In this document: positions 33,977-35,335 of the stretch, in pieces | How the letters are laid out: each line of letters begins with the position of its first letter | Numbering within the stretch: the stretch's first letter is position 1 | Source of the DNA: a virus | Direction: 5' to 3' (one strand) | DNA: 64,000 nucleotides | Virus record (IMG/VR): IMGVR_UViG_3300035701_000010 | Span: 33,657 to 97,656 of that record | Notes under the pieces: generated by a model | Databases searched by the model: none | What the model was told of the DNA's origin: nothing | The model's input: the letters and a program-made list of their open reading frames with translations, nothing else | Program-made: the position numbers and the translations under genes

Positions 33977-34127
33977 CGTTGTCACCTCCTTTCCTAGAGT
34001 AAAAAGGTTTGATCTAACTATCAGTTCACAGACTATTTAGACTGCCTGCAAAGCATGGGCAGAGTACAGGCATAGTTATATGGCTATCATTTGCTTATTG
34101 TATTTGTGGTGTGGTTATGCAATTAAA

Positions 34128-34748
34128 CTACCATGTTACTGTTGCGTATTGTAGTTTAGCAATTGCATACTTATTGCAATATGCATGTATTTGTTTACCC
34201 CATAGTTTGTATACATACAGCCCAACCATAAACGTTTGCCTTATAGCACAACCGTATAGTATTGGTTGCACCATGCACACCATTGGTATATATGCAACAA
34301 GGTTAATAAGCTTTAGCTTTTGTGCTAACCTTTGGTATTTTGCACCCATTGCAAACAACGTGTATGTTACTGCGTATAGCATACTGTTAAAGCAGTTAAT
34401 TGTGCTTGGTATGTTATGCCATAGTTGGTTAGTGTATATGTTAACTGCTAATGTTAATGCTATGCCAATACTAAGCGCAATATATGGCAGCTTAGTGCTT
34501 TTAATTGGCTTGTTGCCCCATTGCCTATTGCCATACCAATTTAAAAACACAAAATATACTGTTATTGCAATGTTGCCATACCATGCAAACCACCAGCCAA
34601 ATAATAACCAGTAAATATTAATTGCCCACCCAATTTTAAAAGCATGTTTTACAACAGTTGGGCTTTTAGCCAAAAATGCAAAGTTTTGGCAGCATGTAAG
34701 CCCTGTGTATAGCCAATTGCAAATAATAATAATTACATTAATAAGCAT
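34128..34748 (-). CDS. polytopic membrane protein without Asp or Glu, 206 aa
   Basis: A multi-span membrane protein: hydrophobic segments near residues 3-15, 40-70, 85-105, 118-135 and 145-175, eleven Trp and not one Asp or Glu. The absence follows from the DNA, since all Asp and Glu codons begin GA. Ser is coded only by AGC/AGT. AAAGGGG 6 bases before the ATG replaces the AGGAGG used elsewhere. The alternation of Trp-ended helices loosely recalls PnuC-type transporters, but that is not a firm match. The plus-strand frame over the same bases (34111-34614) is a shadow caused by the missing TGA. Confidence 0.75.
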   Translation of the reverse strand: MLINVIIIICNWLYTGLTCCQNFAFLAKSPTVVKHAFKIGWAINIYWLLFGWWFAWYGNIAITVYFVFLNWYGNRQWGNKPIKSTKLPYIALSIGIALTLAVNIYTNQLWHNIPSTINCFNSMLYAVTYTLFAMGAKYQRLAQKLKLINLVAYIPMVCMVQPILYGCAIRQTFMVGLYVYKLWGKQIHAYCNKYAIAKLQYATVTW

Positions 34749-34840
34749 TTAATTACCCCTTTATTATTTAATTGTTATATTGTTAAGTTAACAACCGCAC
34801 GTTATTAAGTTATGTTGTTAGTTAATTATTGTTGTTGCAA

Positions 34841-34915
34841 TTATACATACATGCAAATAACTGCAACGCCAAAAACGCCTAACCACAATACATACCAAAA
34901 ATGTTTGCTTACCAT
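34841..34915 (-). CDS. tiny membrane peptide, 24 aa
   Basis: Inside the GA-free island; GGGGGG lies 7 bases before the ATG. MVSKHFWYVLW starts a single hydrophobic span; no acidic residues. Probably translated with the 206-aa protein downstream of it. Confidence 0.6.
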   Translation of the reverse strand: MVSKHFWYVLWLGVFGVAVICMYV

Positions 34916-34956
34916 TGCGTTACCCCCCTTACTATGTAATTGTTAATGGCACTAAT

Positions 34957-34995
34957 GCCCTACCCTATGCTATTGTTACACAACGCAACAATAAT
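34957..34995 (-). other. hairpins at right edge of the GA-free island
   Basis: TATTGTT/AACAATA with a 9-base loop (about 34971-34993) next to a small GGCA/TGCC hairpin (34947-34958). Possible terminator-like or recognition structure; no U-run. Confidence 0.45.
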
Positions 34996-35004
34996 ATATG
35001 TAGG

Positions 35005-35335
35005 TCATTTTCTGAATCCTCGAGATTTTTCTGGTCAATCTGGCCAGATCCTGAGTAAATCGGATAACCATCGGATAGCCCTAAAGGGGACGATCGCCAA
35101 ACTCTGAAGACCCTGAGTAAATCGATTAGACCCAAAGGAGGCATAGGGTTAGGACGGGCTGACCAAGGCTAGACGATGAAATCGACCAAGGGGGAGGCGA
35201 TAAGGCGTATAAGGGAGGTAAGGGGTTGAAGGAATCGGAAACGCAAAGGGGGAAAATCAAAAAGGGAACCCGAGAGGGTCACGAAGTTCCCCTGGGTCCC
35301 CAATAGGACGAGGGATAGAAATAGGCGGGAAAAAT
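35005..35335. other. non-coding G-rich region
   Basis: No supported gene. CCTGAGTAAATCG occurs twice (about 35050 and 35111). The plus strand is G-rich, with words shared with 24.4 and 26.3 kb (GGAAACGCA). It separates the GA-free island from the next block. Confidence 0.6.
35254..35291 (-). terminator. probable intrinsic terminator
   Basis: Minus strand: GGGAAC/GTTCCC stem with a partly paired 16-base loop, then TTTTTGATTTT. Ends the block whose last gene stops at 35336. Confidence 0.7.

Follow-up and report, generated by a model that had tools for sequence, protein, structure and literature searches.

The window, by which we mean the whole 64-kb stretch of DNA analysed, contains a two-gene unit on the minus strand that is enclosed, leaders included, in a 916-bp island (34089..35004, no strand assigned) lacking both GA and TC on direct count. 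The larger gene (34128..34748, minus strand) encodes a polytopic membrane protein of 206 amino acids and the smaller one (34841..34915, minus strand) a 24-aa peptide with a single helix, MVSKHFWYVLWLGVFGVAVICMYV. Both are preceded by Shine-Dalgarno-like sequences that avoid GA, AAAGGGG (34756..34762, minus strand) before the 206-aa gene and AAGGGGGG (34923..34930, minus strand) before the 24-aa gene. The intergenic spacer (34749..34840, minus strand) and the upstream leader or promoter region (34916..35004, minus strand) are GA/TC-free as well; no convincing sigma-70 site was detected in the latter. Neighbouring genes are mostly on the same strand as far as the divergent terminase genes at 39.2 kb. 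The window represents the right-hand 64 kb of a record of 97,656 bp classed as linear. Since a tape-measure-like frame of more than 3,000 codons runs past the record end, the record is a fragment.

The earlier note had reported that no GA or TC occurs from 34089 to 35004, where about a hundred would be expected. Direct count confirms this, with 128 expected over the island length at the window's own rate. Its description of the edges as sharp and of the loss as strand-symmetric is likewise correct: the nearest TC dinucleotides lie at 34087-34088 on the 5' side and at 35005-35006 on the 3' side. Under a first-order Markov model of the flanks, the probability of such an island is about 10^-74.5. 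Outside the island, GA/TC-free runs reach at most 45 bp in the window and 47 bp over the first 40 kb of the record, so that the count over the record, which the earlier note had called for, contains no other run above 47 bp. By direct count, nothing like this gap exists in the window for the other strand-symmetric dinucleotide classes. A TCATTT hexamer is present at both edges (34087-34092 and 35005-35010), its TC being forced by the definition of the island; this direct repeat is a possible target duplication. No transposase was found in the island and no terminal repeats are obvious.

Composition of the island deviates in further respects. AG/CT (0.62) and CG (0.44) are low and GC (2.29) is high. 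Compared with a model in which GA/TC is forbidden, AG/CT (0.74), CG (0.53) and CA/TG (1.42) are still off. The 206-aa protein contains no Asp and no Glu, its serines are encoded by AGC or AGT only and its arginines by AGG only. When this protein was recoded in the codon usage of the phage, 2,000 draws gave a mean of 42 GA+TC with a minimum of 24; protein composition alone is thus insufficient, and both codon choice and residue choice are shaped in this gene. Non-coding parts of the island are purged as well. The 206-codon frame is intact and has 11 Trp, as the earlier note had stated. Structure prediction gave an all-helical model of low confidence. Searches of annotated phages, plasmids and bacterial genomes recovered no relatives of this protein, and an Rfam search gave no match.

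Recurrence of the island in related phages

We wondered if similar islands occur elsewhere. Terminase search retrieved contig IMGVR_UViG_3300032156_000042, whose terminase is 62% identical to that of the window phage. It carries an island of 1157 bp without GA/TC (L027:3718-4874; chance probability about 10^-89), located, as in the window, 4 to 5 kb upstream of the terminase. Occurrence of a homologous clean island on an independent contig rules out an assembly or chance artefact. The membrane protein of this island (214 aa, L027:3862-4506) is 34% identical to the 206-aa protein, and 35 of the 68 identical residues are coded differently, still with zero GA/TC. DNA conservation between both islands is strongest in the stretch coding for the 24-aa peptide, which is kept as MPSKHFWYVLWLGVFGVAVVCIYV, and alignment also reveals conserved blocks in the intergenic spacer. 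Behind the stop codon of the L027 gene (3718-3861), a long hairpin of about 24 pairs (z=-5.2), also without GA/TC, was observed.

The membrane protein may be PnuC-like, to judge from a weak profile match. It resembles PnuC nicotinamide riboside/NMN transporters in being a small polytopic membrane protein, and the L027 homologue matches the Pfam family NMN_transporter (PF04973) with E=0.0065. This score (16.9 bits), however, is below the curated cut-off of 27.3, and the window protein, devoid of Asp and Glu, does not match PF04973.

Wider relatives were retrieved by searches with capsid and terminase alignments. The 140-kb genome G009 contains an island of about 925 bp (L092:2460-3384) with four GA and no TC, two of these GA being parts of AGGAGG Shine-Dalgarno sites. 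Its GC content is 48%, with no shift towards AT, and GA/TC is reduced to 0.03 of expectation. It encodes a short hydrophobic peptide and a 204-aa protein, the latter unrelated in sequence to that of the window. An 83-aa protein encoded next to this island (L092:4018-4269) looks by eye like half a PnuC/SemiSWEET transporter. Another island (L139:1397-3052, 1656 bp) retains eight GA and one TC, and partial depletion was detected at loci L146 and L133. Near-clean islands of further relatives are situated upstream of the terminase and have other genes inside. As to whether other GA/TC-free segments share genes, a question raised by the earlier note, the L027 island does, whereas further relatives carry different genes. 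On the coding strand of two near-clean islands, residual GA prevails over TC (12 versus 1) because of Shine-Dalgarno sites and Asp/Glu codons.

The L139 island is particularly informative, as it covers one of two tandem paralogues whose proteins are 67% identical. The normal copy (511-1071, 561 bp) has 25 GA and 21 TC, the purged copy (1673-2287, 615 bp) two GA and one TC. In the latter, 9 of 11 aligned Asp/Glu are replaced and 73 of 123 identical residues are recoded. This shows that GA/TC avoidance was imposed on one of two gene copies within one genome.

Taken together, the dinucleotide is absent from both strands, in coding and non-coding sequence, and its absence is kept across divergence. 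Whole genes with their leaders are covered, and other members of the family show the phenomenon in different genes, among them a purged duplicate. In the survey of examined loci, no other 300-bp window falls below 0.31 of its own mean, apart from one low-complexity repeat in G024. The trait is patchy among relatives, since there is no island in the examined parts of G002, G003/G008, G004, G010, G011, G012, G028 and G030. Three candidates were rejected: L038 is a chance match at 25% identity, where GA/TC is not depleted; the 243-bp run in G024 falls in low-complexity coding or repeat sequence; and the 98-bp run in L008 is a GC-rich stretch taken as chance.

Forces that could purge GA and TC

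The earlier note had proposed import from a replicon that avoids GA/TC genome-wide. The sharp edges and the possible target duplication would agree with such an origin, but relatives hold diverged or different purged genes at corresponding places, no genome GA/TC-free throughout was found in the 3.98 Mb examined, and a replicon deprived of Asp and Glu could encode few enzymes. The strongest argument against import is the L139 pair, where a purged duplicate stands beside its normal paralogue. We consider import highly improbable; given the corresponding islands of relatives and the tandem pair, avoidance seems to be maintained or produced in place in the phage family. Directional mutation away from GA/TC, whether by a TC-targeting deaminase or through the decay of a modified base, would account for strand-symmetric loss of a single dinucleotide and for the window island being AT-richer than its neighbours. 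Yet AA/TT in that island is 0.98 of the GA/TC-forbidden model and thus not in excess, the G009 island became nearly free of GA/TC at 48% GC, and full-length frames are conserved through deep divergence. Mutational erasure is excluded on these grounds. The composition of the G009 island speaks against the TC-directed deaminase that the earlier note had also suggested, and bears out its view that a single burst of TC-to-TT editing is unlikely. Only if GA/TC turned into many different products would directional mutation escape refutation, and we give it hardly any credence.

Selection could also act on transcripts, an endoribonuclease cutting at GA or UC making these mRNAs avoid GA/UC. The islands do match transcription units, and the residual excess of GA over TC on the coding strand points the same way, but this excess is accounted for by Shine-Dalgarno sites and Asp/Glu codons. 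Moreover, one strand-specific word would do, yet its reverse complement is missing too, and leaders and sequence past stop codons are likewise purged. Loss of the word together with its reverse complement, in coding as well as non-coding sequence, fits selection at the level of double-stranded DNA better than selection on RNA, which appears improbable. Comparably poor prospects are assigned to a structural or replicative role, i.e. an origin or packaging site that needs unmodified DNA and to which the genes are incidental. The turning point of the cumulative GC skew falls at about 34-35 kb in the window and, in L027, at 4-5 kb; the 3' end of the L027 island holds the long hairpin. On the other hand, the island is filled by two conserved genes with Shine-Dalgarno sites, different genes occupy this place in other relatives, and the purged L139 paralogue has kept a conserved protein. 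This leaves selection, within a chosen transcription unit, against the target sites of a DNA activity that recognises GA/TC.

A possible unmarked operon in a marked genome

In our preferred reading, to which we assign a probability of about 0.5, the island is an operon kept unmarked in a TC/GA-marked genome, open to transcription while the rest is not, or the other way round. Selection on double-stranded DNA would clear one transcription unit, or a few of them, of all GA/TC, leaving a GA/TC-recognising enzyme without targets there. The likeliest enzyme would belong to a base-hypermodification system of the phage itself, with T or C in TC (or G or A in GA) as its substrate, so that the operon would remain ordinary DNA within an otherwise marked genome. 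It might then be transcribed when marked DNA cannot be, for example by host RNA polymerase from freshly injected virion DNA; alternatively, it would stay usable when unmarked DNA containing GA/TC is attacked. Our inferences from the pattern concern the nature of the recogniser (a DNA modification), the base that it marks and the protection of transcription. As only one or a few operons are purged, early transcription of the remaining genome requires another explanation.

The same DNA facts, i.e. clean islands and the purged L139 copy, would be expected if the operon were spared by a GA/TC-specific DNA-damaging activity other than the phage's own modification. This might be a restriction system of the host, a toxin that marks TC in DNA or a nuclease with which the phage destroys host DNA, and the operon would have to be expressed while other DNA is cut or blocked. 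Such evasion would account for the retention of a normal copy next to a purged one. Further counter-defence is encoded by the window phage in the form of an Acb2/Tad1 anti-CBASS/Thoeris family member (one ORF between 35336 and 54942 of the window, alignment A4), and the possibly PnuC-like membrane protein would fit NAD replenishment under attack. However, shielding about 1% of the genome is no rescue when cuts fall elsewhere, unless the rest is modified, and no candidate nuclease with dinucleotide specificity was found. We regard evasion of this kind as rather unlikely.

Returning to the operon kept unmarked, a wider proposal can be put forward somewhat more tentatively: phages that mark their DNA by modification keep chosen operons, including purged duplicates, without the marked dinucleotide. 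These operons would stay unmarked and be scheduled separately, an exemption from the phage's own epigenetic code. The titles and abstracts listed in literature searches on dinucleotide context in modified phage DNA, depleted phage regions and hypermodification genes do not mention islands of this kind. Phage DNA modifications with dinucleotide specificity have been described, but we found no report of genes written to escape them. The mechanism is a proposal. If confirmed, it would reveal how phages time expression on modified DNA, offer a signature, readable from genomes alone, by which uncultured viruses could be searched for new modification motifs (here GA/TC), and document selection strong enough to rid proteins of Asp and Glu altogether. 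Should the recogniser instead be a nuclease or toxin, the islands would indicate an undescribed GA/TC-specific conflict system.

Modification genes and comparison with known systems

Genes that might serve DNA modification are present in island phages. The window phage encodes a TET-associated-type glycosyltransferase (TAGT), a radical-SAM/SPASM protein, a methyltransferase and a thymidylate-synthase-like enzyme. Its TAGT (PF20691; L003:1835-2641, in the same record outside the window) scores 67.9 bits against a curated cut-off of 27.5. It was not found in G001-G004 or G006-G008, and the TAGT cluster has no match in G009. G009 encodes a thymidylate-synthase-like enzyme, SHMT, radical SAM and glycosyltransferases; G022 a thymidylate-synthase-like enzyme, glycosyltransferases and methyltransferases. 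Thymidylate-synthase-like homologues in G000, G009 and G022 match M6 gp58 with E values from 1e-19 to 1e-25, those of G000 and G009 share an RSND-xx-WG motif, and the enzyme has homology to the thymidylate-synthase-like genes of M6 (E=1e-19) and LuckyBarnes. On this similarity the enzyme is a putative pyrimidine hydroxymethylase homologue. It is also present in G002, G008 and G028, which are island-less in the examined parts.

An ATP-grasp gene (L002:1301-1915) was detected in G000, G002, G009, G022, G023 and G027 but not in the island-less G008, G010-012, G024, G028 and G030. G001, a 36-kb fragment, is the one island-bearing record in which it was not found; G002 has it as well. Model of the protein matches RimK/PurK-like ATP-grasp folds. 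The gene tracks islands in part and may be a pathway candidate, although the correlation may be phylogenetic. Acidic, highly repetitive DDDDKPKKKAKKVVEE proteins are encoded at L003:3574-4761 and L002:7271-8602.

Among known systems, TAGT pyrimidine hypermodification clusters resemble the gene content of the window phage's record, which combines TAGT, radical SAM, methyltransferase and hydroxymethylase homologue; LuckyBarnes and MW202897 likewise carry TAGT-like glycosyltransferases with a hydroxymethylase homologue. They differ in that no TET/JBP dioxygenase family was among the Pfam matches of scanned window-phage ORFs, and the examined parts of LuckyBarnes and MW202897 have no island.

Iggyvirus (Queuovirinae) uses dPreQ0 with a single GA motif, according to a title cited in PMC11008142. 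Its target word is that of the island, but neither DpdA/TGT nor QueC/QueD/QueE/FolE appeared among the Pfam matches of scanned window-phage ORFs, a scan that covered the larger ORFs lying within the record. We scanned the Iggyvirus Knedl (OR805297), closely related to a phage whose dPreQ0 modification is specific for GA, and found one GA/TC-poor region at the early-gene end of its genome (58400-59205; 17 GA/TC per 700 bp against a mean of 68, the next lowest 700-bp window having 35). Unlike the island, this region is depleted rather than clean, and the short ORFs annotated there are doubtful. Low windows of Knedl and CAjan at 39.5 kb, 42.9 kb and 39.1 kb were discarded as low-complexity coding or repeat sequence; the scan detected no island in the dPreQ0-modified CAjan. 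The Knedl region supports, but does not prove, the idea that GA-marking phages spare a region from marking.

The 5hmdU-derived modifications of phages M6, ViI and phiW-14 target TG and TC, as inferred from restriction-resistant sites (PMC6449724). Dinucleotide targeting that includes TC and the hydroxymethylase homologue are common to these systems and island phages. An M6-type 5hmdU DNA kinase is a point of difference, as M6 gp51-gp56 gave no match in the examined genomes at E<=0.001. The kinase itself we take to be among gp51-gp56. The first 50 kb of M6 have no TC/GA-poor island; island phages instead drop the target word from chosen operons.
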